A stretch of DNA of 24,863 nucleotides, from IMG/VR virus record IMGVR_UViG_3300020167_000006, positions 1 to 24,863 of that record; one strand, 5' to 3'. The translations under genes and the position numbers were made by a program. Shown here piece by piece: positions 4,592 to 24,863 of this stretch (its first letter is position 1; every line of letters begins with the position of its first letter). Under the pieces are notes generated by a model. That model saw nothing but the letters and a program-made list of their open reading frames with translations, did no database searches and had not been told where the DNA came from. Source of the DNA: a virus.

Positions 4592-6228
4592 TAGCTACCC
4601 GTTGGGGTAACAAACAGTTCAGCGCCCATGATGGCGATCTTGACAGGATCTGTAGCCGACAACTCGTACACGCGGTCGCGGATCTTCTCGGTCATGCCCA
4701 ACCGCCGCCAGATGGTGCGATAGCCGTAATTGCCAATCGCGCCCATCGACTTCCAATGCTCGTTTGACCAGGTATGCCCCGCATCGTCCGACCAGCGCAG
4801 CATGACCTGCGGATCGTAACCCGGCGCGGCGGCGTAGGCTTCGGTTTCCAGCGCATAGCCGTTGTAGTCCTCGGCAGGCTGCACTTGGGTCACCAACGGC
4901 TCGTTACCGTCACCGACCTCGGTAACTAATTGGTCACCGGCTTGCGTAACCAGATAGCCCTGCACAAACTCGGCCACAATGATGTCGCCCGCTTCGGTGG
5001 CGAGGTCTTCGGCATCGTAAGCGGGATAGGCATTTAGGCCAACACCCGTTTCTGCATCCAATTGAAGCGAATGGTGCGCGGTGCGCTTGAGGTTGTTCTG
5101 CCCCGTAGCAAGCGCCCGCCACGACCGTAGCCACTTCTGGATCTGGCCGTCGTCAGCGTAGACATCAAGATCAAAGGCGTACAGTCGCCCATCGGAGTAA
5201 TCGCCCACCACAATCTCGTCGTTGAACGACATCTGGCAGTTGCTGCGGTGCCGCGTAAACTGTCCGCCGGCAAACCCAGCGCGTTCATGCCACAACTGGG
5301 TTGAAACGTCATACACCCAAGTAGCCTCAGCCGACGGGAAGACCAACACATAGAACGGATGGCCGTCCTGCTGGTAGGTGTATCCAATGGCATCTGTGAT
5401 GTCGCCATAGCCCTGAATAGCGTACTCCACCGCGTTGGTAGAGAGTCGGGCGGGCGTGTAGCCGTTGGCCCGATAGACAATCCCGCGCCCCCGAGCGTCT
5501 GAGCCTAGCCAGAACACGCTGTTGTCCAGTTTCGCTACAGAGTACGCGGCCTCGCACCCAACTTCCATGAACGCGCCTTGAATCCGCGCCATCGGGAAGT
5601 CCGGCGTTCCCGCGTCATACCAGACCTCAACGCTGGTGGTGCCAAACAGGAAAATCTCTCGGTGATCTACAATCAGAGCCACCACGTTGTCGGGGTAGCC
5701 TTCTGCGCTGGCAAAGTCCAGCGGGTCAATTAGCGTTCCTTCCAGCAAGCTGGTGACCCAGAACTTCTGGCTGTTTGGCTCAGTAAACACAAAGTAGCCA
5801 TCCAGATACCCGACCGATCCAGCACCGGGGAAATCCGTGTCAGTAATCTGGGCAAACACGCTTGTCGAAGTGTTGTAGATAAACCCGTCAGGGTTGCAAG
5901 CGATGAATATCTGCGTCCCGTTGTCTGCCATGCTGACCGGGCCTGTACCAGACACGGTGCCCAGCAAGGTGGCTGCGTAGCTTGTAGACAGGCTGTAAAA
6001 CTCGCTGCCCGACACCACATACGCAACGCCATTGGTGACCCACAGGCCGCGTATAGGGCCGTTGCCGACAGTTGCAAGCACCCGAAGGCCGGGACACCGC
6101 AGCAGGAAGCCCGCCTCTTTTCCGCCGCTGCCCTCTGGAATAGCTTCGGGGAACAGGTTGACCATGCGGTTGTCTGCCGCATTGATCGACCGAGCAACGT
6201 AACTTCCGCCGAGGATGGGCGTTTTCAA
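4591..6228 (-). CDS. P22 gp10-like tail hub / packaged-DNA stabilisation protein, 545 aa
   Basis: Recognised as the P22 gp10-type plug family. The N-terminus reads TPILGGSYVARSINAAD, then VNLFPEAIPEG and CPGLRVLATV, followed by repeated short beta-blades (VTNGVAYVVSGSEFY; VDHREIFLFGTTSVEVWYD; SDARGRGIVYRANGYTP; SCQMSFNDEIVVGDYSDGRLYAFD). In P22 this protein forms a ring under the gp4 connector and keeps packaged DNA from leaking. The C-terminus (DPQVMLRWSDDAGHTWSNEH, IWRRLGMTEKIRDRVYE) is the conserved end of the family. The start is TTG at 6228, directly abutting the upstream TAA. No in-frame ATG lies near, and the conserved N-terminus starts here. It sits between a fibre-like gene and the S74 fibre. 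Confidence 0.87.
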   Translation of the reverse strand: MKTPILGGSYVARSINAADNRMVNLFPEAIPEGSGGKEAGFLLRCPGLRVLATVGNGPIRGLWVTNGVAYVVSGSEFYSLSTSYAATLLGTVSGTGPVSMADNGTQIFIACNPDGFIYNTSTSVFAQITDTDFPGAGSVGYLDGYFVFTEPNSQKFWVTSLLEGTLIDPLDFASAEGYPDNVVALIVDHREIFLFGTTSVEVWYDAGTPDFPMARIQGAFMEVGCEAAYSVAKLDNSVFWLGSDARGRGIVYRANGYTPARLSTNAVEYAIQGYGDITDAIGYTYQQDGHPFYVLVFPSAEATWVYDVSTQLWHERAGFAGGQFTRHRSNCQMSFNDEIVVGDYSDGRLYAFDLDVYADDGQIQKWLRSWRALATGQNNLKRTAHHSLQLDAETGVGLNAYPAYDAEDLATEAGDIIVAEFVQGYLVTQAGDQLVTEVGDGNEPLVTQVQPAEDYNGYALETEAYAAAPGYDPQVMLRWSDDAGHTWSNEHWKSMGAIGNYGYRTIWRRLGMTEKIRDRVYELSATDPVKIAIMGAELFVTPTGS

Positions 6229-7191
6229 TTACGCCGTGACCGCTTTAATGACCGCGAAAGCGATCACAATTGCTTCGCTCAACGAACCTGCGGTAATATT
6301 CCGCACGTTGATGCTGGCCGAACCCGCCGCAGATTGAGCATTGAGAAGGTACGAACCGGCAGTGCCTGCGCTGATATGGTTCATTATCAGAATGTCACCA
6401 GCCTCAATGACCGTGTTGGTGAGCGTAAAGCTGACGGTGGTATCTGAAGCAAGCGCCGCCGCGTTCAGCGTAATCTGGCCGGTTGATTTGCTTAACGTCA
6501 CGCCGGTTGCCTTGCTAGTCGCTTGGGTAACCGTTCCACCAGCGCCGGTTGCATAGCCTTGTTTTCCGGTGCTACTCAACGTCCCCGTTACCGCGACGCC
6601 GGTCGAACTGAAATCAGCAACAAGCGACGTTGCGCCACCCATACTGTTTACGTGAATAGTGAACTTTGATGCCAGCGTGCCGTGAAATTGGTTAATCCTG
6701 TATTCAGCACCTGACGCGGCATACAGTTGTCGAGTTTCGGCGGTTGCGGTAGCGTTGGATGTGATAATCGGTATATCGGAAGTCGGAGTTAAGCTACTCG
6801 CACTCAGCGCCCCAGTGACCGTTAGGCTTGTTCCTGTGGCTGCTCCAATGTTGGGCGTCACCAATGTTGGCGTATTGGCAAATACATTTGCGCCTGTCCC
6901 TGTCTCGTCCGTTAAGGCTGCGGCAAGATTTGCGCTTGATGGCGTTGCCAGAAAGGTTGCCACACTTGCACCCAATCCAGACACGCCCGTTGCAATCGGC
7001 AATCCGGTGCAATTGGTCAATGTTCCAGAGGTCGGTGTGCCGAGGATCGGCGTAACAAACGTCGGGCTGGTAAACAGCTTGGTGACCGACAGTTGTTTTG
7101 TCGTGCTGGTTGTTGCTTGCACAATCGGCAGCACATCGGCGCCAGCTTGCGAAGCGGCAACGGGGAGAGCAGAAATTGCGATATTAGCCAT
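6229..7191 (-). CDS. Fibre-like virion protein, 320 aa
   Basis: The N-terminus has the pattern ANIAISALPVAASQAGADVLPIVQ...TKQLSVTKLF, a motif found at the start of many phage fibre-like proteins. The middle carries Thr/Gly/Ala fibre repeats (TPNIGAATGTSLTVTGALSA). The last 105 residues form a compact module ending INVRNITAGSLSEAIVIAFAVI that recurs in the protein at 17948-18361. I chose ATG at 7191, one base after the gp4-like stop. A GTG 15 bases further upstream is possible but overlaps that gene. It lies between the connector and the plug genes, so it is probably part of the tail or a decoration. Confidence 0.75.
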   Translation of the reverse strand: MANIAISALPVAASQAGADVLPIVQATTSTTKQLSVTKLFTSPTFVTPILGTPTSGTLTNCTGLPIATGVSGLGASVATFLATPSSANLAAALTDETGTGANVFANTPTLVTPNIGAATGTSLTVTGALSASSLTPTSDIPIITSNATATAETRQLYAASGAEYRINQFHGTLASKFTIHVNSMGGATSLVADFSSTGVAVTGTLSSTGKQGYATGAGGTVTQATSKATGVTLSKSTGQITLNAAALASDTTVSFTLTNTVIEAGDILIMNHISAGTAGSYLLNAQSAAGSASINVRNITAGSLSEAIVIAFAVIKAVTA

Positions 7192-14692: not shown

Positions 14693-15051
14693 GCCAGAAA
14701 ACGCAATTTGTACAGCGTGGTCAAGTACAACTCCACGATGTTGTCGATCAGTTGCTGAAGCGATGTGTCGGTTTTTTCGCACACATCATACCGAGCCGCC
14801 TCAATTTCTTTTAGCTGGTCTTCCAAAAACTCAATGATGTTGCCCGTCTTTTTGGCAGACATCAGCGAGATCGGGCCAATCAGTCCGTGGCGACCTTGAT
14901 AGGCTTCCGCAAACGCGTCGGCGTGGTCGATAATGCTGTCGTAAAACGTGTTCAACGCCATGTGCTTGGAAAAACTACGGGTGTTCAAGTGGACGCTATG
15001 CGCCACATCCCGCGCCAAAAACAACGCACCTACAAAATCGGCGGCTTTCAT
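14689..15051 (-). CDS. Ferritin-like/DUF5856-type helical protein, 120 aa
   Basis: All-helical protein with the pattern FVGALFLARDVAHSVHLNT, then SFSKHMALNTFYDSIIDHAD, FAEAYQGRHGLIGPI and a C-terminal helix LQQLIDNIVELYLTTLYKL. It resembles phage DUF5856 proteins, whose shape suggests a four-helix bundle related to Dps/ferritin (H-x-x-H-L-N-T, Y-Q-G). Function is not known. ATG at 15051 overlaps the stop of the HNH gene (ATGA). If the HNH gene were absent, this gene would follow the portal gene directly. Confidence 0.75.
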   Translation of the reverse strand: MKAADFVGALFLARDVAHSVHLNTRSFSKHMALNTFYDSIIDHADAFAEAYQGRHGLIGPISLMSAKKTGNIIEFLEDQLKEIEAARYDVCEKTDTSLQQLIDNIVELYLTTLYKLRFLA

Positions 15052-15554
15052 TGGGGCATTCCTTCAGATGCAAACATACCGTGATGTTGGCGTCTTGCAA
15101 TTTTAACCGCGCTAATGGCGTCGGTTAATTTGACAAACCGGCCTAAATTTACACAAGTTCGATCCGCGTACACCCGAGCAACCCATTTTTTTTTGGCCTT
15201 GTCCCAAGTAACTCCTTTTACCCCAGAAGTGTTGTCTGGCCTTAGTTTACTGTTGTACGCATTTTCAGCGCGGGTAGCAGGTCGCAAATTATCAACCCGG
15301 TTATCGTTTGGGTTTTGATTTATGTGGTCGATCAACTCAGGCACATACCCATAATGGTACAGATACACTAATCGGTGAGTGCGGTAGACCTGACTATTAA
15401 TCATTATTTGTCTATAGCCGTCAGTTTTTCTGAACGTACCCGCTTCGTCGCCAATGTTAATTTTGCGGCTGACTTTCTTACGCCAATATAATTTTCCGTT
15501 TTCATACCGGAACAAATCCTTGATTTGGGCTTGCGTTGGGTGGCATAGGCGCAT
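15048..15554 (-). CDS. HNH homing endonuclease with AP2 DNA-binding domain, 168 aa
   Basis: Free-standing phage HNH endonuclease. Residues about 10-50 are the usual N-terminal strand region (LFRYENGKLYWRKK). The HNH core is at about 58-95, with H60 (RTHRLVYLYHYGYVP), D76-H77-I-N79, N85 and N89 (NRVDNLRPAT). The AP2 domain is at about 108-162 (SGVKGVTWDKAKKKWVARV, then LGRFVKLTDAISAV). The start is ATG 15554 with CAGGAGA; an open frame continues upstream to 15752 but only as antiphase of the portal. It overlaps the portal end by 53 nt and the next start by 4 nt. It is visibly more AT-rich than the portal, which fits a mobile intruder. Confidence 0.9.
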   Translation of the reverse strand: MRLCHPTQAQIKDLFRYENGKLYWRKKVSRKINIGDEAGTFRKTDGYRQIMINSQVYRTHRLVYLYHYGYVPELIDHINQNPNDNRVDNLRPATRAENAYNSKLRPDNTSGVKGVTWDKAKKKWVARVYADRTCVNLGRFVKLTDAISAVKIARRQHHGMFASEGMPQ

Positions 15555-17709
15555 TTTGCGTCTCCTGAGGCTCGTTCTCAGGTATGTTATCACGGTTACT
15601 AACCATAGGGTTACCGGAAACAATATCGCCGGTAGCCATCGCCGCGTGTAGCGTTCCCATAACAATATCGTGAATTTGATCTTCACCCATTGAATTTTGC
15701 ACCGCCGAGATCCGCTTGGTTTCCGCGTCGTAGGCTTTGACCTCGCTGTCAAACTGCTTGATTTTCAAATCTTGGGCTTCCATTGACTGCCCAACATTCT
15801 TGAGCATCTGGTGCATCTGCTCCATCTCCTGCGCCATTGCCTGCATCTGCTGGTTGGCCGCTTGCAGCGCCGGATCGTCCTCGTTGGACAACAGTTTTGG
15901 ATCAATGGTCTTGGCAAACCGTGCGGCCATCTCTTGCGCGCCCGGCCAATCCATGTGCTTGATGAACAGGTCGCCAGCCACCGCCCACAGTTGCGGGTTG
16001 CCTTGCAGCAGTTGGCTCATCGCGTCCAGCGACTCCTGCCGCTTGGTCATGTAGCTTGGGCCGGTCGTGACCGCAACATCGTACTTGCCGACGTTGGGGT
16101 TGTAGATCTTCTTGATGACGATGCCAGCTTCGTTCTGGATCCGCTTGACCGGCATGGGCTGCATCGGGTCGATCATGGCTTGGTCTGTCTCACCATCTAT
16201 GCCAATGATGCGGGCAATGCGCTGCGTGTCGTAGATTTTCGGAATCAGATCGACCAATTGCCGCGTGGCGTACCGGATCGCCCGCGCCAGATTGTCCACA
16301 TAGTGGTAGGTGCCGGTGTCGGCTTGCTTCTCGCGGGCCAGAATCGCCCGCCCAGAACGCTCGTTGCTCGTGGCACCAAGGCTTGAGTCATACTGCCCGG
16401 TAGAACTCTTGATGTCGTCCGCAGCGCCCGCCTTGGCTTGCAACAGGCCGGTTGAGGCCATTGGGGGCTGCGATCTCGCTGGGAGCGGCAGCGGCCCGCC
16501 TTGGCCGTCGGTCACATCGGGGTTGACCTCAAGGTAGGGCCAGTTGTTGATGTTGGCCGTCTTCCATTGCTGCTCGTAACCCTCAAACTGACCGCCGTAC
16601 CCGATAAACGGTGCCTTGGGCGCCAGCGCCAGCATCTCGGCCTCTTGGCTAACCCAGTAGTTGTACATCCGTTGCGCGTCTTTGGCGTTTCGCACCAGAC
16701 CGCTAACGTACATCCGCCCGTCTATCTCAAATTCGTTGCCAATTACGCGGATTACGGGGATGTATTTGCCCGCCCAATCGCGCTCTTCCAGCACCTCAAA
16801 CCCGTTGGTTTTGCACCATTTGACCGTGCGAACGTCCACATCGCGGGTTTTTATGGCTTGCAAACCCATCATTTCAGCCTGTTTTGCCTCCGGCGAACCC
16901 GCCATTGCGGTGATTCCGCCGTGGTACTGGTTCAGCTTCTTGGCTTCGTGCTTGATGTAGAAATACTCGGCAATCCGCACCGTGTCTTGATTAATCCACG
17001 CGTTCAGTTGCCCGTCGCCCACACCGTATTCAAGGCTGGACAGGGGCGAGGCATCGGGAAACTCGCGTTCGTACTCTTCTTTGGTCAACTCTTGGTTGAT
17101 GAAGCACCATTCCGCATCCGATCCGCACGGGTCTTGGATCGTCGGATCCATGTACACGCTGAAACTGTCCCGAATGCGCCCAATCCGCAGATCCTGCTCA
17201 AAGGTGTTGTCGTCGCAGTACTCGGTCAGGATGCGGAAGTACCCTTCGCCAAACGTGACCTGGTTGTCGCAGGCCGTGTCGTAGGCTACGTCAGCGTCCG
17301 AGATATATTCGATGTGCCGCACCAGACCGTTGAAGATCTCGGCTACTTCGATGTCGGCTTTGTCGTCAGCGGGGATGACTTTGCCGCTAGGCCGGTTCTG
17401 GCGCTGGTCGTTGGTGACTTGCAGCACATGCTGCGGCAGTTTGTTGATCGTCAGGCAAGGCCGAGCGTTGATCGTCTGGCCTTGGATGCTGCCACGGGTC
17501 GCCAAAACGTCGGCGGGCCACTGCCACTGGTTGTCAGGGCTGGCCGCACGAAAACGCAGGTCGTCTAGTTCGTCCTCACGCGAGTCCGAGTAGGCAGAGA
17601 TCGCCATCGTCAGGCGAGTACGCATGGTCGCCAGCATCTCGCCGTGGCCCCGCGTGCTGCCCGTGGCGATGACGCCTGCTTCGGTAACCCCGTTGTCCTG
17701 ATAGGCCAC
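15502..17709 (-). CDS. Portal protein, P22 gp1-like, 735 aa
   Basis: Dodecameric portal at one capsid vertex, through which TerL pumps DNA. Length (735) and motifs fit the P22 gp1 family: N-terminal AYSDSREDELDDLRFRAAS and NDQRQNRPSGKVIPADD, then VTFGEGYFRILTEYCDD, SVYMDPTIQDPCGSDAEW, the basic SNERSGRAILAREKQADTG and the clip/crown region ending in a long helical, Gln/Met-rich coiled coil (NQQMQAMAQEMEQMHQMLKN). The start is GTG at 17709; its first base is the last base of the upstream TAG (TAGTG). A weak AAGAG lies upstream. Its C-terminal tail is Pro/Asn-rich and unstructured and overlaps the HNH start. Confidence 0.93.
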   Translation of the reverse strand: MAYQDNGVTEAGVIATGSTRGHGEMLATMRTRLTMAISAYSDSREDELDDLRFRAASPDNQWQWPADVLATRGSIQGQTINARPCLTINKLPQHVLQVTNDQRQNRPSGKVIPADDKADIEVAEIFNGLVRHIEYISDADVAYDTACDNQVTFGEGYFRILTEYCDDNTFEQDLRIGRIRDSFSVYMDPTIQDPCGSDAEWCFINQELTKEEYEREFPDASPLSSLEYGVGDGQLNAWINQDTVRIAEYFYIKHEAKKLNQYHGGITAMAGSPEAKQAEMMGLQAIKTRDVDVRTVKWCKTNGFEVLEERDWAGKYIPVIRVIGNEFEIDGRMYVSGLVRNAKDAQRMYNYWVSQEAEMLALAPKAPFIGYGGQFEGYEQQWKTANINNWPYLEVNPDVTDGQGGPLPLPARSQPPMASTGLLQAKAGAADDIKSSTGQYDSSLGATSNERSGRAILAREKQADTGTYHYVDNLARAIRYATRQLVDLIPKIYDTQRIARIIGIDGETDQAMIDPMQPMPVKRIQNEAGIVIKKIYNPNVGKYDVAVTTGPSYMTKRQESLDAMSQLLQGNPQLWAVAGDLFIKHMDWPGAQEMAARFAKTIDPKLLSNEDDPALQAANQQMQAMAQEMEQMHQMLKNVGQSMEAQDLKIKQFDSEVKAYDAETKRISAVQNSMGEDQIHDIVMGTLHAAMATGDIVSGNPMVSNRDNIPENEPQETQNAPMPPNASPNQGFVPV

Positions 17710-17849
17710 TACTTGCTCTTCTTGTTCATCGCGCCGCGTTTAACCGAGTAGGCAATGGCAACGGCCTGCTTGACCGGCTTGCCCGCAGCAACCTCGGCCT
17801 TGATGTTCTTGCGGAAGGCAGTGGGCGACTTTGACTTGACCAGTGGCAT
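17709..17849 (-). CDS. Small basic phage protein before portal, 46 aa
   Basis: Basic protein of the pattern MPLVKSKSPTAFRKNIKAEV, then AAGKPVKQAVAIAYSVKRGA, ending in a Lys-rich tail. The arrangement S-x-x-A-F-x-x-N-I-x-x-E-x-x-x-G-K-P-x-K-Q-A-x-A-I-A-Y is found in many phages next to packaging or portal genes, function unknown; it may bind nucleic acid. ATG at 17849, TAG overlapping the portal GTG start. Too short for most automatic calls but well supported by its recognised pattern. Confidence 0.78.
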   Translation of the reverse strand: MPLVKSKSPTAFRKNIKAEVAAGKPVKQAVAIAYSVKRGAMNKKSK

Positions 17850-17851
17850 GG

Positions 17852-17951
17852 TTAGCACTTCCATCGTTTGAGAGAGGCTTTTGCACGTTCAGCGGGGCCG
17901 CTGGCGTTCTTGACTACCCCGGCCAACCGCCAAAGACACGCTTTTTTTCAT
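17852..17951 (-). pseudogene. Frameshifted small Cys/Arg-rich gene (32 aa if corrected)
   Basis: ATG at 17951 overlaps the upstream stop (ATGA), and the region ends with TAA just before the 46-aa gene. The length, 100 nt, is one base too many. The start frame gives only 20 residues, MKKSVSLAVGRGSQERQRPR. Dropping one A from the A7 run (T7 on the + strand, 17942-17948) gives MKK-ACLWRLAGVV, then KNASGPAERAKASLKRWKC, a coherent 32-residue peptide with Cys at both ends and a pattern (AGVV.NASGPAERAKASLKRW) seen in small phage proteins. Most likely this is a homopolymer sequencing error or recent mutation; transcriptional slippage on A7 is the alternative. Confidence 0.6.
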
Positions 17952-18361
17952 AGCAAATGAATAATAGCAAAGTTCAACACAACCGCCTCAGACAATGGCG
18001 TAGCTGCGGTGATGTTTCGCAGGTTAATCGCCGCCGAACCCGCAATCAAACTAGTAACCCACACGTTGTACGAGGCCACCGTTGCGCCGCTTGCAATCGT
18101 CAGCAACAGCGTGTCTTTAGCCGAGATGTATGAATTTGTCAGCGTAAAGCCCACGTTGGTAGCACCGTTCAGCGACGCGTTGTTCATCGTGATTTGGCCG
18201 CAGGGCGCGTTCAACGTAACGCCCGTTGATTTGCTGCTTGCCTGCGTTACGGCCCCTTGCGCTGCGGCGGTGTAACCCAACGTCACGTTTGCGGCAAGCG
18301 TATCCGCACCACTAATGTCTTGGTCAGAATACGCAATACCAATAGACTTGCTGTTAGCCAC
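17948..18361 (-). CDS. Small fibre-like protein, 137 aa, paralogue of the 320-aa protein's C-terminus
   Basis: The last 100 residues (TQASSKSTGVTLNAPCGQIT, ATNVGFTLTNSYISAKD, AAINLRNITAATPLSEAVVL) align with the C-terminal module of the 6229-7191 product. Its N-terminus (NSKSIGIAYSDQDISGAD) resembles that of the next gene. Start is GTG at 18361, two bases after the previous stop, with no clear ribosome site, so it is probably coupled. The fold looks like a beta-sandwich; a fibre-tip or decoration role is inferred. Unusually placed between terminase and portal. Confidence 0.75.
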   Translation of the reverse strand: MANSKSIGIAYSDQDISGADTLAANVTLGYTAAAQGAVTQASSKSTGVTLNAPCGQITMNNASLNGATNVGFTLTNSYISAKDTLLLTIASGATVASYNVWVTSLIAGSAAINLRNITAATPLSEAVVLNFAIIHLL

Positions 18362-18363
18362 GT

Positions 18364-18750
18364 TTAAGTGGCCGTGGTAACGGCAGTCCAGGCGGTGGCA
18401 CCGTCTGTGTTTGAATACAGGCGGGTGCTGACGCTAGAGCCATCCGATCGCAGGTAGAGCGAACCTTTGGCTGCGGTGATCGTCGGTGCGCCCGAGCCAA
18501 GGTAAAGCCCAAACCCTGCCGTAGCGGTTGCCAGCACGGCAGCAGAGCCGCCAGCGGTAATTGCCGTGGCGTTGATTGCAGTCACGGTGCCGGTGCCGGA
18601 AACGGTCGTTCCGGTAACCGCGCCCGTTGACGTTACGGACGTAAACGAACCCGCCGCTTTGGTTGTGCCACCAATGACGGTGTTGTCAATTGTCCCGCCG
18701 GACAGCACGGGGTCAGAAAACGCTACACCTACTGATACGTTGTTTGGCAT
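18364..18750 (-). CDS. Small fibre-like protein, 128 aa
   Basis: N-terminus NNVSVGVAFSDPVLSGGTID, then GTTKAAGSFTSVTSTGAVTG, a fibre-type unit also seen in the S74 fibre (ATTPATGAFTLVSATGAITG). The C-terminus is GLYLGSGAPTITAAKGSLYL, then RSDGSSVSTRLYSNTDGATA: the A-x-x-G-S-L-Y-x-R-x-D-G motif widespread at the end of phage fibre or head-decoration proteins. ATG at 18750 with a poor GGGG-type ribosome site. Probably a virion surface protein. Confidence 0.75.
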   Translation of the reverse strand: MPNNVSVGVAFSDPVLSGGTIDNTVIGGTTKAAGSFTSVTSTGAVTGTTVSGTGTVTAINATAITAGGSAAVLATATAGFGLYLGSGAPTITAAKGSLYLRSDGSSVSTRLYSNTDGATAWTAVTTAT

Positions 18751-18770
18751 GTCAAGACCCCATCCATGAG

Positions 18771-18860
18771 TTAGTTACGGTGCGTGCCTGAGAAAATACC
18801 AAAGTTTTCCCAATGCCCCTTGTACCTCTGTTTTGTCAATCCGTCAAACAGGTCGCGCAT
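18771..18860 (-). CDS. Candidate 29-residue peptide after terminase
   Basis: ATG at 18860 shares one base with the large terminase stop (TAATG), a typical coupled start. It reads MRDLFDGLTKQRYKGHWENF then GIFSGTHRN, a balanced mix of charged and aromatic residues with no low-complexity bias. It fills an otherwise non-coding gap before the fibre-like gene. No family recognised; could be chance. Confidence 0.42.
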   Translation of the reverse strand: MRDLFDGLTKQRYKGHWENFGIFSGTHRN

Positions 18861-20446
18861 TAGTGTCCCATCCAGCCAGTATTAACGTGGTGGTTCTGAG
18901 CGTTGACCCGCCGATCCGGTGCCTCTAGCTGCACTTCTTTTGGCCAGACCAGTTTAAGGTTAGGCTCCTCAATCCGCGCAAGGGAGTCGATCATGTCCTT
19001 GTGGGCGCTAACAGGGAACGGCAGGTACTCCTGTTCAATGAAGTCATGCACCAGGTTCCGCGTGTTTTTCTCGTAATCGGTTACATAAAAACTCTTGGGA
19101 AAGTAAATCCTCCCCTGCTCAAATATCGGAATTAGCCGCGAGATACGGTCATCCTTACCCGTCCTGCCCGCAACCTCCATGATATCGAAGCGATACCCCT
19201 CAGCCTCTTGCACGGACTTGATGTGCTGGATATCGGCCATCAACCCGTACTGTTCCCACCGCACCTGCTTGGGTTTCCATTTGCGATGCAGTTCAATCAG
19301 CCGAGCCGCACGCTCAGTCAGGTTCAGCCGATCACGAACCATGTCCAGCACATAATAGTTCTGGTCTTGACCCAACCCGATCACCCACATCGCCGTGTAG
19401 TCAGAGTCCTTGCGCTTGGAGTTTGCTGAGTCCACCAAAATGTAGTTGTTCGTCTTCGTTGGTTTCTTGGTGTAATACCGCAACCACTCGCGCTGAAACC
19501 CCTGCAACGAATCGGCCTTCGGGTTCAGCAATATCTGCGCGGCATAGGTGTACGGCCCCATGTCCTTGCGCTTCTGGTGGTGCGTCAGGTCGTCCCACAC
19601 AATTGAGTGACCCTCTTCAACGCCACCAATCCTGCCCGGATACTCCCGCGCCTTCAGCGTCCCGCGATCCGTCAGCGTTTTATAGGCATCGTTGAAGTGC
19701 CACCGCGTACCGGCCCCGCGTTTTATCCCCGGCGTTGTCCCAAGGTTATACGAACGCTCCATCTCCACCATGACCTTGGCGATCATTTCGGGAGTTGTCA
19801 CGGAACCCGCTACCACAACGTCATCGTAGTGCAGCACCTTGAAGTGCTTCGATGTCGGCTGGCCGTCCACCAACCCCCACGCCTCCACCGTTGCCTCATT
19901 GGGGTTCGACTTACGCTTAACGATAATCCCGTCATCCTCCGACCACTTCGCAGCCTTACGGATATCCTTGCCGTACAGCACATCGGGGAACGCCGCGTGC
20001 AGCGTAAGGTTCTCTTCCAACTCGCGCATGATCTGACGCAAAAACGCTTTCGCAATGGGCCGCGTGTGGGAGAAAATCCCGATTGTTATCTCGGGGTCTT
20101 TCAGGATGCTCTGAATCGACAACCCAAACGTAATCGTGGAGGACTTCCAGTGTTCGCGTGACCACAGATCCAGATACCCGTTGGGGTTCGCCTCGACCTC
20201 GCGGCACCGATCAAAAGCAAACGAGTTATCCACAAACCCCGGTCGTCCGACGCACGGCAGCATATCCACGCGATTACACACCCGCACCATCAGATAATAC
20301 AAATCCGCGCAGACCAGCATCCTCACGACCTGGTTCAGTTTCCCCTGCTGCCGCCCGATCTCCTCCAACTCATCCCAATACCGAATCGCGCCTTCGACCG
20401 GCAGCGCGTGCAGCATCTTCACCTGCTCTGGAGTCAATTCGCTCAT
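18860..20446 (-). CDS. terL: Terminase large subunit (packaging ATPase/nuclease), 528 aa
   Basis: Motor that cuts concatemeric DNA and pumps it through the portal. The ATPase half has a Walker-A-like element at 94-104 (LWSREHWKSST), followed by SIQSILKDPEITIGIFSHT, and a Walker B at about 203-210 (KVLHYDDV). The RNase-H-like nuclease half has D339 (ILVDSANSKRKDSDYTAMW), E398 (VRWEQYG) and D484/D487 (AHKDMIDSLAR). Length is close to P22 gp2 (499). ATG at 20446 overlaps the TerS stop (ATGA) and lacks a ribosome site. The Walker A lacks the classic GKT and is of the variant W-x-K-S type found in many phage terminases. Confidence 0.94.
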   Translation of the reverse strand: MSELTPEQVKMLHALPVEGAIRYWDELEEIGRQQGKLNQVVRMLVCADLYYLMVRVCNRVDMLPCVGRPGFVDNSFAFDRCREVEANPNGYLDLWSREHWKSSTITFGLSIQSILKDPEITIGIFSHTRPIAKAFLRQIMRELEENLTLHAAFPDVLYGKDIRKAAKWSEDDGIIVKRKSNPNEATVEAWGLVDGQPTSKHFKVLHYDDVVVAGSVTTPEMIAKVMVEMERSYNLGTTPGIKRGAGTRWHFNDAYKTLTDRGTLKAREYPGRIGGVEEGHSIVWDDLTHHQKRKDMGPYTYAAQILLNPKADSLQGFQREWLRYYTKKPTKTNNYILVDSANSKRKDSDYTAMWVIGLGQDQNYYVLDMVRDRLNLTERAARLIELHRKWKPKQVRWEQYGLMADIQHIKSVQEAEGYRFDIMEVAGRTGKDDRISRLIPIFEQGRIYFPKSFYVTDYEKNTRNLVHDFIEQEYLPFPVSAHKDMIDSLARIEEPNLKLVWPKEVQLEAPDRRVNAQNHHVNTGWMGH

Positions 20447-21069
20447 ATCGGCCCGAGCGTACTCGGTTCGTGCAGCGTCCGCCGGGGAGGACTATCGGGA
20501 GGGATAATCCCGTGCTGCTCACGCGTTCCGCTGGGCGCGGACTCTCGCACCACCTCCCCGGCTTGGCTAACTTCGCTTTCATACTCTCGCTGTGCAACGA
20601 TTTCCACCGCAACGGGGTCGCTTTCCGCAACGACCTCGCCGCCAATAATCTTTTCCGCCGCAACCGGCGCGGCCAACCTCGCCAGCAACGCACCGGCCAG
20701 CCCGATCAATCCCGCATCGGCCCCAAACGCCGCCGACTTCTCAATCGCTACCCGGTCGCCATACTGCTCCCGGCTCCACACCTTCGCCTCGTCCCGCCGC
20801 CACGCACTCCGCAGCTTCGCAACCGCAACATCGTCCGGCATCGCCTGATCCACAATCTCCCCGCCTTCGTGGAACCGCACTTCCGCCCGCGCCTTCAACG
20901 CATCCTGATACCCGCCCCACCGATCATCCGAGGCCCGCAACCAGTTCAGCACCGCACCCAACGTCCAGATCCGGTTCCCACACGCCCCCACCAGCCCGAC
21001 CTCCACCACATCATCAAAAAACGCCTCCAACTCCTCCTCGTCCACCCGAGTAAGCGAGTCCCGCGTCAT
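20443..21069 (-). CDS. terS: Terminase small subunit, 208 aa
   Basis: Assigned from sequence pattern and position just before terL. Helical DNA-binding-type N-terminus FFDDVVEVGLVGACGNRIWT, then LGAVLNWLRASDDRWGGYQD, ALKARAEVRF, HEGGEIVDQA, and KLRSAWRRDEAKVWSREQYGDRV. The last is the K-L-R-x-x-x-R-x-x-x-A-K-x-x-x-Y-G-D-R pattern that ends the core of many small terminases. The C-terminal third is Ala/Glu-rich and Pro-rich. I chose ATG 21069 because GGAG lies 4 nt upstream; ATGs at 21087 and 21138 are weaker alternatives. Confidence 0.8.
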   Translation of the reverse strand: MTRDSLTRVDEEELEAFFDDVVEVGLVGACGNRIWTLGAVLNWLRASDDRWGGYQDALKARAEVRFHEGGEIVDQAMPDDVAVAKLRSAWRRDEAKVWSREQYGDRVAIEKSAAFGADAGLIGLAGALLARLAAPVAAEKIIGGEVVAESDPVAVEIVAQREYESEVSQAGEVVRESAPSGTREQHGIIPPDSPPRRTLHEPSTLGPI

Positions 21070-21335
21070 CCGGCTCCGTATCCCCATAGCCCCGTTATAC
21101 GCCCCAATCCGACTGACCGCAACCACAGCCCATACCATCCCCTACCCCGCATCCAGAAAACGCAGCCTGACCGCCTTGCCGCCAATCCTTGGGCACTTTG
21201 CGGAAATGGCAAAACCTGAATTTTTTTGCGCGCCAAAAATTTGCGAAAGGTATGACGGGGAGTCCCAGACCTGCACACGGTCGGCCAAGGCCCTTGCTCC
21301 CCCGGCCCGCCGGAATCAGCCCGACGAGCCAGCAT

Positions 21336-21363
21336 TGACCACGGCTGACCACGCTTGACCACG
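21336..21363. repeat. Three TGACCACG direct repeats, exactly 10 bp apart
   Basis: TGACCACG occurs at 21336-21343, 21346-21353 and 21356-21363, each separated by two bases, so all copies face the same side of the helix. It lies about 270 bp upstream of the terS start. Arrays like this bind oligomeric proteins. A TerS recognition (pac-type) site or an operator for the late block are the two main options. Confidence 0.7.
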
Positions 21364-21539
21364 GTCGCCCGGCGGATTTGCCTGCGATCCGGGCCGAAAA
21401 CGCTGTAGCCCCTATGATGCATGGGAGCGATTGCTTATGCGTATCATGCGCTTAGCATTGCGTCCGGCCTTTATTCGGCATCTATTCGCCCCTTGTTGCT
21501 GGCCTGCAACTGTGTCCAGGTAGCTGCGCCATGCAAATC

Positions 21540-21579
21540 CATTGCGGCACATGCGGCAGCATTGCGGAACATTGCGAGA
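21540..21579. repeat. Four phased CATTGCG-type decamers
   Basis: Back-to-back ten-base units CATTGCGGCA / CATGCGGCAG / CATTGCGGAA / CATTGCGAGA. More CATTGC or GCAATG copies flank them (for example 21456). Helically phased direct repeats suggest a protein array along one DNA face. Confidence 0.65.
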
Positions 21580-21604
21580 CTCCGCACATGCTGAATTAGG
21601 CGGT

Positions 21605-21632
21605 TTCACAATGAGCCGCAATGCATTGTGAA
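21605..21632. promoter_or_regulatory. Operator-like 9-bp inverted repeat
   Basis: Perfect dyad TTCACAATG (21605-21613) and CATTGTGAA (21624-21632) with a 10-nt spacer. The right part also contains the palindrome CAATGCATTG (21619-21628). A third half site TCACAATG is at 21752-21759. Arm length and spacing fit a dimeric helix-turn-helix or ribbon-helix-helix repressor. Confidence 0.6.
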
Positions 21633-21682
21633 GCATTGCCAGAATCTCCTAAAAGGAAAGTTAAGAGAAAGGAAGGAATTTT

Positions 21683-21817
21683 ATGCATATAAATCACTTA
21701 AAAAGAATTTACTCTCCTGGGCGCGTGCAATGGATTACAAGGTTTCGACCGTCACAATGTGTCGCAATGCGCTCCAATGCATCGCGCAGACTATATGCCG
21801 AGAATCCGACACATTGA
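21683..21817 (+). CDS. Candidate 44-aa basic peptide in control region
   Basis: ATG at 21683 has a strong purine-rich ribosome site (AAAGGAAGGA) 5-6 nt upstream, the best in the region. The 44-residue product is Arg-rich with two Trp/Phe clusters (MHINHLKRIYSPGRVQWITR, then FRPSQCVAMRSNASRRLY). No family recognised. Because it runs over the ATGCAT repeats, coding potential may be accidental; a leader peptide is another possibility. Confidence 0.35.
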   Translation: MHINHLKRIYSPGRVQWITRFRPSQCVAMRSNASRRLYAENPTH

Positions 21818-21851
21818 CGAAACGCCGACACTTTCTGACGAGATGCCGACA
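21806..21851. repeat. Three CCGACA iterons about 20 bp apart
   Basis: CCGACA at 21806-21811, 21825-21830 and 21846-21851. The first two copies continue as CA(T/C)(A)TT... and end in GACGA, giving imperfect units of 19 and 21 bp. Roughly two helical turns apart, just before the early genes, in the manner of replication iterons or tandem operators. Confidence 0.55.
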
Positions 21852-21977
21852 GGTGGATTGTGGGCGATTTATGCATATGATTGATTTGCTAGGGAAAATT
21901 ATATGCATCAATCTGGCACGGGTTATGCATACAGACAGGTGCAGGAATCGACTAACGAACGGGATAGGGGCGACAAA

Positions 21978-22220
21978 ATGAACCAAGAGTACACGGCAAA
22001 CCGCGACATGATGGAAGCCACGGCACAGGCAATTGCCGAGGATATTGCTTATCAAGCGGCATTAGACACGTCGAATGCTGCATTGAAAGTGTATCAAGTA
22101 GCTGTGCAGGCATACCGCAATCGCACAATCGGCGATGCCGAATTCATTGCGGCACAGGATATTTACCGCGCTGCCGAACATGCTTTCGACCTAGCTTTCG
22201 CGGCAATAGCTAACGGCTAA
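21978..22220 (+). CDS. First early gene, 80-aa helical protein, unknown function
   Basis: ATG at 21978 with AGGGG about 7 nt upstream; a longer frame from 21903 starts on an ATGCAT repeat without a ribosome site and is rejected. The product is Ala-rich and almost entirely helical (MMEATAQAIAEDIAYQAALD, then AALKVYQVAVQAYRNRTIG, IYRAAEHAFDLAFAAIA). The acidic and hydrophobic faces suggest a small oligomeric helical bundle. Being first behind the control region it may be an early host-takeover or regulatory protein; this is inference. Confidence 0.65.
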   Translation: MNQEYTANRDMMEATAQAIAEDIAYQAALDTSNAALKVYQVAVQAYRNRTIGDAEFIAAQDIYRAAEHAFDLAFAAIANG

Positions 22221-22233
22221 AAAGTATCGGGGT

Positions 22234-22253
22234 ATGCGCCTTTCGGGGTGCAT
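22234..22253 (+). other. Intergenic hairpin, TTTCGG loop
   Basis: 7-bp stem ATGCGCC / GGTGCAT (one G-U pair on the rightward transcript) with loop TTTCGG. It lies between the 80-aa and 74-aa early genes, 14 nt after the first stop. No U-tract follows, so it is more likely an RNA processing or stability element than a terminator. Confidence 0.5.
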
Positions 22254-22294
22254 TCTCGGGCGCTTTGCTCGATAACTGAACGGGAGAATAGATC

Positions 22295-22519
22295 ATGAAA
22301 ACGGCAGACTTTCGCAGCATCGCAAAGGTAACTCCAACGCGGTACGCGGACGCGGAAACCGGGTGCAATCTTTACATCGGGCATATCGGGCACGGGCATT
22401 GGCAGGTTGTCGCGGAACAGGACGGGCAGATGAACCAAACTGGGCCAATAGCTAAGACCAAGATGGAAGCGTTCAGCATCCTGCCCAGCGTGGCGAAAGT
22501 GTGGGGATTCGACGCCTAG
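22295..22519 (+). CDS. Small early protein, 74 aa, unknown function
   Basis: ATG at 22295 with GGGAGA about 7 nt upstream. The sequence alternates in short strands: KVTPTRYADAETGCNLYIGH, then IGHGHWQVVAEQDGQMNQTG, followed by a helix (KTKMEAFSILPSVAKVWGF). Two His-Gly segments (GHIGHGHW) stand out as a possible metal or nucleic-acid contact. No named family. Set between the two similar hairpins. Confidence 0.7.
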   Translation: MKTADFRSIAKVTPTRYADAETGCNLYIGHIGHGHWQVVAEQDGQMNQTGPIAKTKMEAFSILPSVAKVWGFDA

Positions 22520-22529
22520 TCTGCAATCC

Positions 22530-22549
22530 TAGCGCCTTTCTGGGCGCTA
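22530..22549 (+). other. Intergenic hairpin, TTTCTG loop
   Basis: Perfect 7-bp stem TAGCGCC / GGCGCTA with loop TTTCTG, 10 nt after the 74-aa gene's stop. Same architecture and near-identical loop as the hairpin at 22234, suggesting a repeated functional element. Confidence 0.55.
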
Positions 22550-22608
22550 CAGAGTGCGGATTACGGAGCCTGACCGATTCGGGCGCATAGATTGGGGGAT
22601 TGGCAGAT

Positions 22609-23028
22609 ATGAACACGATCAAAGAGTTTTGCAGTCAGTCGAATGTACCGGAAGCATTGGTTCGCGCAGTTGTTCGGCAGGTTGGCGGATGGGACAGCTT
22701 CCGCGAAATGGCCGAGGACGTGGCGAATCATGGCGCGGATAGCGGATTCTCGGGATTCTGCTATCACTCCGAAACCGTGAAATTCGCCAAAGCCAATTTC
22801 GAGAGCATCTACGAACTGGCCAGCGGGATGGCTCAGGACTGCGGTTATGACAGCGTGATAACGATGGTGGCCGGGTTCCAATGCCTGAAGGACTGGGATC
22901 GCGCCGAAGTCGAGCGGGCGCTGTTCCTCAAGAACAAGGGCGAAGCGGAAACTCCGGTTTATAACGCGCTGGCATGGTTCGCCCTCGAGGAAGTCTCGCG
23001 CAACTACGCCGACACGGTGGCAGCATGA
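22609..23028 (+). CDS. DUF7222-like early phage protein, 139 aa
   Basis: ATG at 22609 with GGGGG 10 nt upstream; a TTG at 22600 is too close to that site. Helical protein with pattern NHGADSGFSGFCYHSETVKF, then VAGFQCLKDWDRAEVERALF and PVYNALAWFALEEVSRNYAD. The H-G-A-D-x-G-F-x-G-F, S/T-E-T-V and A-L-A-W-F/Y-A-L-E-E-V-x-R-x-Y elements recall a family of unknown-function phage proteins I associate with DUF7222, from memory. Its stop overlaps the next start (ATGA). Role unknown; early operon context suggests DNA metabolism or host control. Confidence 0.7.
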   Translation: MNTIKEFCSQSNVPEALVRAVVRQVGGWDSFREMAEDVANHGADSGFSGFCYHSETVKFAKANFESIYELASGMAQDCGYDSVITMVAGFQCLKDWDRAEVERALFLKNKGEAETPVYNALAWFALEEVSRNYADTVAA

Positions 23029-23387
23029 GCCTATTTAACACCACCACGCCGCGCACCGATGCGGCCCTGGCGCTAGTCGCAAAAGCCCGAGAAACCGAGT
23101 CCGACTACAAGTGCCACGATCCGCTGATAATTTCGCACGTTTCGCTGGAAATGGATTACAACGGACTACGCGCTGAGAACGAGCGGCTGCGGGAGGCGCT
23201 GGCGCAGGCCGTGCGTTATGTCGAAGTGCAGCACGCCTATCGGGGTGCAATGACGGCGGCAGAGGTTGAAGCGGCGATTATTGCCAATGCCTCCCTTGCC
23301 GAGGTTCGCATAGGGGCGAACTCATGCAACACGCTTGCGGCTTTTGATTTGTTCAAAGCCCGCGCAGCACTAGGGGCGGCATTATGA
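23025..23387 (+). CDS. Early protein with short coiled coil, 120 aa
   Basis: ATG at 23025 overlaps the previous stop (ATGA); no own ribosome site, so translation is coupled. N-terminus NTTTPRTDAALALVAKARET, then a leucine-type coiled coil YNGLRAENERLREALAQAVR, followed by Ala-rich helix (GAMTAAEVEAAIIANASLAE). The L-R-A-E-N-E-R-L-R-E-A-L segment is widespread in small phage proteins that dimerise. Function not known. Ends overlapping a membrane micropeptide. Confidence 0.68.
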   Translation: MSLFNTTTPRTDAALALVAKARETESDYKCHDPLIISHVSLEMDYNGLRAENERLREALAQAVRYVEVQHAYRGAMTAAEVEAAIIANASLAEVRIGANSCNTLAAFDLFKARAALGAAL

Positions 23388-23443
23388 TCGCGCTGGCCGT
23401 GTTCCTGTGCTTGGCGCTACTTGTAATTATTTTCGACCTATAG
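23384..23443 (+). CDS. 19-residue membrane micropeptide
   Basis: ATG at 23384 overlaps the previous stop (ATGA) and has AGGGG about 7 nt upstream. The product, MIALAVFLCLALLVIIFDL, is one continuous hydrophobic segment of transmembrane length with a lone Asp near the end. Both coupling and ribosome site support translation. Function unknown; might be an inner-membrane effector or the remnant of a longer gene. Confidence 0.5.
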   Translation: MIALAVFLCLALLVIIFDL

Positions 23444-23452
23444 GGGGATGAT

Positions 23453-23665
23453 ATGAATAAATTTTACGTTACAGGTGGTGCAGATCAATACTGGATGCCG
23501 ACAAAAGCGCGGACGTTTCGCGGCGCGTTACGAGCGGCAATGGCGCGGTATCAGAGTGCCTACGGCGGGCGGATTGAGGTGGCCGAGTTGCTGGACGGCG
23601 AGTACTGGGTTGTTGCGATCAAGCGCGGCTTTAACTCGTGGGATTATGCGGGAGCCGGAAAATGA
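23453..23665 (+). CDS. Small early protein, 70 aa
   Basis: ATG at 23453 with GGGGG 5 nt upstream. Sequence: KFYVTGGADQYWMPTKARTF, helix GALRAAMARYQSAYGG, then beta pair RIEVAELLDGEYWVVAIKRG and WDYAGAG. This compact beta-alpha-beta arrangement is typical of small phage proteins of unknown function. The stop overlaps the next start (ATGA). Confidence 0.68.
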   Translation: MNKFYVTGGADQYWMPTKARTFRGALRAAMARYQSAYGGRIEVAELLDGEYWVVAIKRGFNSWDYAGAGK

Positions 23666-23868
23666 CCGATCCAAAACCGAGAATGAAGCGCCTCTGCCTC
23701 ACGCTCGACGACTATACGATCTTGGAGGCCAAACGCCGAGGGGACGGCAACCTATCGCTAGGCATCCGGCGGGCGTTCAGTCCTCCCCAGGTTCTCGGCC
23801 CTGACGCTTCAGGAACTCAGGATGCTGCGCCGCACGATACTTCTCCACGGCAATCTGCGCCGATATAA
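23662..23868 (+). CDS. Ribbon-helix-helix-like small DNA-binding protein, 68 aa
   Basis: ATG at 23662 overlaps the previous stop (ATGA). Residues about 8-39 look like an Arc/CopG-type unit: strand MKRLCLTLD, helix 1 DYTILEAKRRG, turn GDGN, helix 2 LSLGIRRAF. The L-x-L-D-D-x-T/x and G-D-G-N-L-S-x-G-I-R-R-A pattern is common in phage/plasmid RHH regulators. It would bind DNA as a dimer and is a candidate for the operators in 21400-21860. The Pro/Ser-rich tail after residue 40 is antisense to the DUF3987 gene's end and may be unstructured. Confidence 0.68.
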   Translation: MTDPKPRMKRLCLTLDDYTILEAKRRGDGNLSLGIRRAFSPPQVLGPDASGTQDAAPHDTSPRQSAPI

Positions 23869-24863
23869 TCTGATCCTCGAAGCGCCCGTCGAAGGCGCGA
23901 GGATTTACCTCGTATTCCGAGGATAGGCCGGACGACCGAATTATCGGCCCCATTGGTCGCACCCAGCCCGCGCCCTCCACACGCACCCAGAATTCCTTCC
24001 ATTGCTGAATCGTCAGGCTGCGCTTAAAGTTTCCCCACGCGGAATTCAGCTTGTGCGGCTTGATCGTCCGGATATTGCGGGCCAGCACGAACTCGGCGAA
24101 CGTCCGCACGGATTTATCCTCGTCGCCGTATTGATCCAGCGTAGAGTAAAAGTGCAGCATGTGCGGCCACAGGCAGTCGCGCATGTACTCCCAGGCAAGC
24201 GCCACAGTGTCGCGTTCAATGGTCGCAGTGATAACGTCACGGCCCGCTGCGGCGCATTGGATAGCGTGCATTGTGAGGGCGATGCGGGGCAGGTAGGCCC
24301 GCCACTTAGAAAGCGACTGCCGCGCGCCTGCGGGGAATTGGGGAATGCCGCGCATGTGCGTAATCCAATCCGTGGCCTCGCGCCGGATCGTATGGGCCTC
24401 GTCCGATAAGATGCAATGGTCGAGGTGCGGTTTCATTGCGTACAGAGTGTGCAGGATTGCGCGCCATTCGCTGATCGCGCCCCGATCTGCGGGCTGTTCG
24501 GATTCCTCGTTCGCGGGGCCGGTCGAGTTATAGACCAACACGCGCTGCATGAGGCCATCCGAATCAAGATTCAGCTTTACGGCGGCGCGGCGGATTGCAT
24601 CGGGCTGAGAACCGCCAATAATGCTCACGCCGGTATTGGGGATCGTCCGCAGCTTACCGACCAGAATGCCGATAAACTCCGCGCCGTCCCATGCACTGAG
24701 CCAGAATTGCCGGTCAGAACCCTTTCCGCCGCTTTTGTACTGATCCATGCTCATCAGCCAGGACAGGAATTCGTCCGCATAGCACATGGCCCCGCGTGTC
24801 GTCGCCTCCTGCTGCTCTAACAGGCCCTCCGCCGTTGTCCCGTTGAAATACAGCATCTCATTT
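23777..24863 (-). CDS. DUF3987-type replication (primase/helicase-like) protein, C-terminal part
   Basis: The frame is open through the right edge, so the N-terminus is missing. The visible part has ATTRGAMCYADEFLSWLMSM, then GSDRQFWLSAWDGAEF and NTGVSIIGGSQPDAI, the Walker-B-like and sensor region of DUF3987 proteins found with phage primases and helicases (D-E-F/L-x-x-W-L and S-I-x-G-G-x-Q-P). The C-terminal 200 residues are helical and end REPGED. It probably acts in phage DNA replication initiation. It converges on, and overlaps by 92 nt, the RHH-like gene. Confidence 0.82.
   Translation of the reverse strand, partial: NEMLYFNGTTAEGLLEQQEATTRGAMCYADEFLSWLMSMDQYKSGGKGSDRQFWLSAWDGAEFIGILVGKLRTIPNTGVSIIGGSQPDAIRRAAVKLNLDSDGLMQRVLVYNSTGPANEESEQPADRGAISEWRAILHTLYAMKPHLDHCILSDEAHTIRREATDWITHMRGIPQFPAGARQSLSKWRAYLPRIALTMHAIQCAAAGRDVITATIERDTVALAWEYMRDCLWPHMLHFYSTLDQYGDEDKSVRTFAEFVLARNIRTIKPHKLNSAWGNFKRSLTIQQWKEFWVRVEGAGWVRPMGPIIRSSGLSSEYEVNPRAFDGRFEDQIISAQIAVEKYRAAQHPEFLKRQGREPGED

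Follow-up and report, generated by a model that had tools for sequence, protein, structure and literature searches.

What is the role of the four CATTGCG-type decamers that follow each other at positions 21540-21579 of IMG/VR virus record IMGVR_UViG_3300020167_000006, between the late and the early genes of the phage, and which protein reads them? To answer this, the entire record of 24,863 bases (hereafter called the window) was analysed. We propose that the decamers are part of a larger set of boxes which probably serve as initiator-binding sites (iterons) of a phage replication origin, with the layout known from Staphylococcus aureus pathogenicity islands (SaPIs) and other phage-inducible chromosomal islands (PICIs), and that these boxes would be read by an initiator of the DUF3987 family. 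Binding and origin activity are predictions from comparative sequence data.

The four decamers read CATTGCGGCA CATGCGGCAG CATTGCGGAA CATTGCGAGA. Each unit comprises a 7-bp box and 3 bp, and the step between units is exactly 10 bp, as stated in the original prediction. Exact CATTGCG boxes are found in three of the four (21540, 21560 and 21570), the second unit (21550) being CATGCGG, a variant with one base deleted. The four-unit extent given in that prediction is real but understated, since the units form the left end (21540-21576) of twelve boxes on both strands which together cover 240 bp and continue to 21779 (Table 1). Steps of 10 bp are found inside each group of boxes, the single box at 21726 being the sole exception. 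Between the arrays lies the most AT-rich 80-bp stretch of the entire window, and two sets of short boxes thus flank an AT-rich region, as in origins of the SaPI/PICI type.

Table 1. Coordinates of the box set, the helicase gene and associated features in the window
Feature	Position	Strand	Remark
Distal array, three TGACCACG units, 10-bp steps	21336..21363	+	Conserved in six genomes; membership in the origin uncertain
Allelic segment overall	21530..21788	.	Match in L006 only; TGGTCA-box segment of like layout in L002-L005
Left array, CATTGCG (three) and CATGCGG variant, exact 10-bp steps	21540..21576	+	Four boxes identical in L006
Inverted box pair CACAATG (21607) / CGCAATG (21617), 10 bp apart	21607..21623	-	Second is CATGCGG-type in L006
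Direct box pair CATTGTG (21624) / CATTGCC (21634), 10 bp apart	21624..21640	+	
AT-rich, partly purine-rich tract, candidate melting region	21636..21715	.	AT content 0.71 vs 0.44
Lone inverted box TGCAATG, outside the 10-bp register	21726..21732	-	
Right array, inverted CACAATG (21753) / CGCAATG (21763) / TCCAATG (21773), 10-bp steps	21753..21779	-	
DUF3987 replication helicase, C-terminal 361 residues, cut by contig end, candidate initiator	23777..24862	-	96% identical to L006
C-terminal domain, predicted winged helix, candidate box reader	23777..24157	-	AlphaFold2 predicted local distance difference test (pLDDT) 71

An array detector was used to which no motif was supplied, and which scores heptamers with at most one mismatch that are paired at 10, 11, 20 or 21 bp, on both strands and within 350 bp. 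Its sole match in the 24.9-kb window was CATTGCG, with a score of 9. This score was reached in none of 300 dinucleotide shuffles (best shuffle 8), and therefore the array is not due to chance. The box region is situated in the divergent interval between the late and early gene blocks. The structural genes run leftward and include portal, major head, head closure and tail genes as well as terL (18860-20446) and an Sf6-type terS (20443-21138), while the early genes run rightward from about 21.9 kb. As the phage encodes all these structural proteins and both terminase subunits itself, it lacks the dependence on the structural proteins of a helper that defines PICI satellites.

Two alleles of the box segment and of the DUF3987 gene

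Five close relatives (L002-L006) were found via TerL, at 98-99% identity. Their intergenic regions align to the window on either side of 21530-21788; within this segment only L006 matches, at 87-91%. The segment occurs in two forms, with CATTGCG boxes in the window and L006 (form A) and TGGTCA boxes in L002-L005 (form B). In either form the phasing is about 10 bp and the boxes are inverted about a purine-rich tract. In L002 the order is TTGGTCAggcTTGGTCAaacgTGGTCA, the purine-rich tract and then the inverted TTGACCAcggTTTGACCA, and in all four B genomes the top matches of the detector are the TGGTCA-type boxes. Conservation in relatives, proposed earlier as a check, is found for the period and not for the box sequence, which is swapped in L002-L005. 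Between the window and L006, 80 of 84 box positions and 133 of 156 spacer positions are kept (p = 0.019, for a box set chosen partly by eye). No relative of the intergenic region was found in 50,697 phage records, and pattern scans for further relatives gave the known contigs and six others without similarity to the window.

The form of the segment agrees with the allele of the DUF3987 gene in all six genomes; TerS and the neighbouring small genes do not track it. DUF3987 (PF13148) still carries "unknown function" as its name in Pfam. The complete homologues in L006 and L004 match this family with E-values of 7e-40 and 1e-40 (138 and 140 bits, with a cut-off of 27), and the fragment in the window, which was scanned against PHROGs only, matches phrog_2373 (DNA helicase). 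This fragment is 35-36% identical to its counterparts in L002-L005, as against the near-identity with L006 (Table 1). The first 160 N-terminal residues are common to both alleles (85% between L006 and L004), beyond which these diverge to 24-30% identity in the helicase part and 47% in the C-terminal domain. The P-loop reads GDSGDGKS in the A-type helicase of L006; that of the B-type helicase (L004, 3785-5848) reads GDPSTGKG, an unusual P-loop without Ser/Thr after Lys. The helicase alleles have no relative in genome_contigs, and tblastn against named phages gave weak matches only, in three records for the A allele and two for the B allele. A search of PDB sequences with the helicase alignment gave a single match (E 0.86), taken as chance.

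The DUF3987 gene lies about 2 kb from the segment, with the boxes downstream of the gene and small genes in between. Within positions 15001-24863, the box segment and the DUF3987 gene are the only parts that match L006 alone, and the pattern is broken by the 2 kb between them, parts of which match L005, L003 and L004. To the left of 15001, which few relatives cover, five more 200-bp bins match L006 alone, three of them at or past the end of the L004 stretch compared. Seen from L006, the right-arm blocks absent from every B genome are the first 300 bases, 901-2100 (the ERF/YqaJ recombination cassette) and 4801-6300 (part of the DUF3987 gene). The origin segment of L006 (8401-8800) has only partial matches in the B genomes, and a small-gene block of L006 is common to L005 only. 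The cassette with ERF and YqaJ spans 886-2297 in L006, and the B phages have other genes there.

In a tree of terL and terS, the closest partner of L006 is L005 (support 100), and that of the window is L002 (support 76). Since the nearest core relative of each A phage is a B phage, at least one of these lineages has exchanged its boxes and helicase, which thus appear to have moved together.

Arrays at other DUF3987 genes

Phage L093, from a different metagenome, has a helicase domain much closer to A (74-76% identity) than to B (23-29%), and a C-terminal domain slightly closer to B (52-53%) than to A (45%). Downstream of its DUF3987 gene, two TTGTCAA boxes (4747, 4757) are followed by two inverted copies (4897, 4907), with a pyrimidine-rich tract in between, a layout like that of both alleles. 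The L093 box TTGACAA shares six of seven positions with the B box TTGACCA (random heptamer probability 0.0035), and two with the A box.

Strict arrays (score of at least 6) were identified in the kilobases flanking DUF3987 genes at five of 20 loci, representing four lineages and always on the downstream side: L093, L063 (AATTGGC), L097/L098 (TCAATTC) and Moraxella phage Mcat10, L109 (TGTCTGC/GCAGACA). In L093, L063, L097 and L109 the array lies directly downstream of the gene. Two more of the 20 loci have a score of 4. This set leaves out L113, which is partial, and the window group, where the origin is not beside the gene. In control kilobases from TerL relatives without detected DUF3987, a score of at least 6 occurs in 4 of 807 (Fisher p = 0.0002, with L098 merged with L097 as they have the same boxes); three of these four are self-overlapping palindromes, and the remaining one (L016) is possibly a genuine origin. 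The association between arrays and DUF3987 genes is real, and it is far from universal, at least for strictly phased boxes.

As to the sampling, the phage records examined number 14 (12 of 256 matching phage records and two more). A PF13148 search of 40 records (39 of the 75 TerL relatives, and L093) found two; L063, a weak DUF3987 match, was missed, and had been picked up through its array before its helicase was recognised. Boxes lacking the strict score, seen by eye and left uncounted, occur in Sinorhizobium AP-16-3, Rhizobium RHph_TM3_3_14B, Pseudoalteromonas C7, Vibrio 1.030 and L066, and Loktanella pCB2051-A has long inverted repeats in place of an array. In Mcat10 (L109, 3541-3813), GCAGACAA boxes on both strands extend from the end of the DUF3987 gene to near the annotated attL, and the origin candidate thus adjoins the attachment site. 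In L016 (121-280), TGCGTCA boxes in 10-bp steps on both strands lie upstream of terL; its replication gene is off the contig, and the boxes are possibly another origin allele.

With respect to the part of the helicase that would read the boxes, the best structural matches of the C-terminal domain model are mostly winged helices, none at Z >= 8, and Foldseek gave no match for this domain at E 0.001 or better. The helix at residues 50-62 of the predicted winged helix reads IQQRREFW in B as well as in L093, against IQQWKEFW in A. The sequence comparisons point to the C-terminal domain as the probable box reader, with moderate support because the C-terminal domains of A, B and L093 are nearly equidistant.

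We suggest that the DUF3987 protein would act as a replication helicase that forms a hexamer and loads itself, and that its C-terminal winged helix would bind one box per helical turn, thereby aligning neighbouring subunits along the same side of the double helix. The two inverted arrays would each carry such an assembly, oriented toward one another with the AT-rich tract in between; the assemblies would melt this tract and depart as a pair of forks. As a box would have to fit its reading domain, only recombinants in which both segments change together would survive.

Competing explanations and neighbouring repeats

Several observations weigh against an origin read by the DUF3987 protein. The sample is small, with two A genomes (window and L006) and four B genomes, of which L003 and L004 are near-identical, leaving at most five independent genomes. 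The ERF/YqaJ cassette, beyond the end of the window, also differs between L006 and all B genomes. The detector fails to pick the origin segment of L006, and the array scores of L002 and L093 were reached in 6 of 200 and 2 of 300 shuffles, respectively, so that both of these rest on position as well. No array was detected at 13 of the 20 DUF3987 loci. The AlphaFold2 model of the full-length helicase is poor (pLDDT 52) and was left out of the fold search. The cumulative GC skew of the window has its minimum close to 22 kb, which counts in favour of an origin, although divergent transcription may account for it. Finally, the sequence of the distal TGACCACG array is that of B-type boxes, and yet the window has this array intact and L006 has it almost intact.

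The distal array, with units at 21336, 21346 and 21356, bears out the earlier observation of a second 10-bp-phased array nearby. The two arrays had been called unrelated, which is too simple, as TGGTCA/TGACCA serves as the box in the alternative allele that relatives have in place of the CATTGCG segment. None of the other TerL relatives examined was found to carry the distal array, which may serve another protein or be a remnant of a recent B-to-A exchange. The 10-mer TTGACCACGG recurs in the origin array of L002. A third set of repeats at 21806-21851, in which CCGACA alternates with TGACGA at steps of about 10 bp (21-bp unit), is kept in the window and five relatives, being degenerate in L002. 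In L016, which is more distant, a similar TGTCGA set adjoins the box array. At 21914-21929 (+), TGGCACGGGTTATGCA occurs once and without variation in the window and in each of L002-L006, some 50 nt before an early ATG, and we take it to be a sigma-54-like -24/-12 sequence with one mismatch to the consensus. The 18-mer of this site is also intergenic in L118 and L124, contigs without similarity to the window.

The alternative that survives best, though still an unlikely one, is that a transcription regulator of the phage uses the boxes as operators, the alleles then being two regulatory specificities. The segment lies between divergent gene blocks, where regulators bind, and other phased repeats (21806-21851) adjoin it. 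However, the co-segregating gene encodes a helicase and not a regulator, and no sigma-70-like site was found in 21100-22000. The first early region (22001-22266) is common to the window and L005, which has other boxes; this also makes the early small proteins, proposed at first as possible readers, improbable. An AT-rich core between inverted arrays, with a like layout at other DUF3987 genes, fits an origin better. A known RNA element was rejected as well, Rfam giving no match at the gathering threshold in 21100-22100.

There is a very small probability that the boxes are a partition or other maintenance site, or a site for a host protein, with the helicase linked by chance or by shared transfer. 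The few genomes and the differing ERF/YqaJ cassette leave some room for this; however, two exchanged blocks with unexchanged DNA between them, in two core backgrounds, are unlikely to arise by chance. Moreover, a host protein would need no new box in phages so close, and no partition protein was present among the genes scanned.

Even less probable is a packaging site (pac/cos) bound by a ring of TerS, one of the two kinds of reader originally envisaged. It is true that terS is only 400 bp away and that ring proteins can contact phased repeats. However, the TerS of the window has 88-90% identity to that of each of the five relatives despite the wholly different boxes in B, and the terL/terS tree pairs CATTGCG phages with TGGTCA phages, contradicting the box alleles. 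Boxes and TerS thus do not co-vary as expected for a pac site, and TerS was rejected as the box reader. The other kind envisaged, a replication initiator, is favoured by the agreement between box form and DUF3987 allele and by the position of the boxes around the AT-rich stretch.

That the 10-bp period is a product of chance or of coding is hardly credible: two small open reading frames overlap the left array (21421-21594, +; 21412-21636, -), but the shuffles argue against chance, the whole segment is replaced in four of the five relatives, and a coding origin was rejected because the L006 counterpart is broken by stops in most frames.

Relation to known origins and significance

The best reading of the locus is an iteron origin of the known SaPI/PICI kind, found here in phages and not in satellites. 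In phage lambda, the initiator O binds repeated sites near an AT-rich stretch, which are iterons of about 19 bp inside the O gene itself, and a separate host helicase is loaded. The present locus resembles lambda in combining a putative phage initiator with repeated sites beside an AT-rich stretch; unlike in lambda, the boxes are intergenic, between terS and the early genes, and no O-like match was found among the scanned early genes. Phage P4 is a satellite, the alpha protein of which unites helicase and origin recognition and carries its own primase domain, and its boxes occur in more than one cluster (ori, crr). Compared by these features and not by sequence, P4 would share with the present phages the single protein for helicase and origin recognition, as well as the several box clusters, and differs in being a satellite and in the primase domain of alpha.

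P4 alpha and its cognate site are mentioned in PMC6092414. SaPI Rep proteins have their iterons downstream of the gene (PMC7581432), and PICI origins have two iteron sets around an AT-rich region (PMC6092414). The present phages share with these systems a helicase, here a candidate initiator, encoded nearby and lineage-specific sequences of the (here putative) iterons (PMC6092414, PMC7581432), as well as, probably, the reading of iterons by a C-terminal domain, which is known there. They differ in being phages with their own head, portal, terminase and tail genes, in having a DUF3987 helicase instead of the DUF927 or D5_N/Primase_Cterm types, in the exact 10-bp phasing, and in the distance of 2 kb between origin and gene, although the strict arrays at other DUF3987 genes adjoin the gene.

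Cch2 of the staphylococcal cassette chromosome mec (SCCmec) is likewise a candidate self-loading helicase, and its isolated C-terminal domain binds direct repeats (AAGTG iterons) downstream of the gene; unlike the present system, it is a D5-type helicase with three iterons on one side only, in a chromosomal cassette (PMC7581432). In the PICI-like elements (PLEs) of Vibrio cholerae, the iterons and the initiator RepA are also swapped as a replication module, for which escape from an origin-directed nuclease (Odn) is a plausible driver, but that initiator is of the RepA_N type without a helicase, the iterons are about 30 bp long and the element is a satellite (PMC7145576, PMC8263062). DUF3987 has been predicted to be a helicase that occurs fused to primases, the fusions having at their end a winged helix with a possible role in origin recognition (PMC5862659). 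The phage-inducible chromosomal minimalist island (PICMI) satellite replicates less when its primase is deleted, which belongs to a gene class detected with DUF3987 and DUF5906 models (PMC10803314). Our literature search recognised no description of a DUF3987 origin box, which is not proof of absence.

As a tentative generalization, the DUF3987 family may contain a broad group of phage initiators which are self-loading helicases and which use a rapidly evolving winged helix at the C-terminus to read boxes that are helix-phased and specific to the lineage. Origin specificity would then be changed by exchanging two separated segments, the array and the helicase/reader part, as one unit; this may help a phage to evade satellites, nucleases directed at its origin, or phages that compete with it in a co-infected cell. 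The two natural alleles constitute a ready-made exchange experiment, in which closely related phages supply two sets of boxes along with two reader domains, and such an exchange design yields a clear yes/no prediction for both binding and replication.
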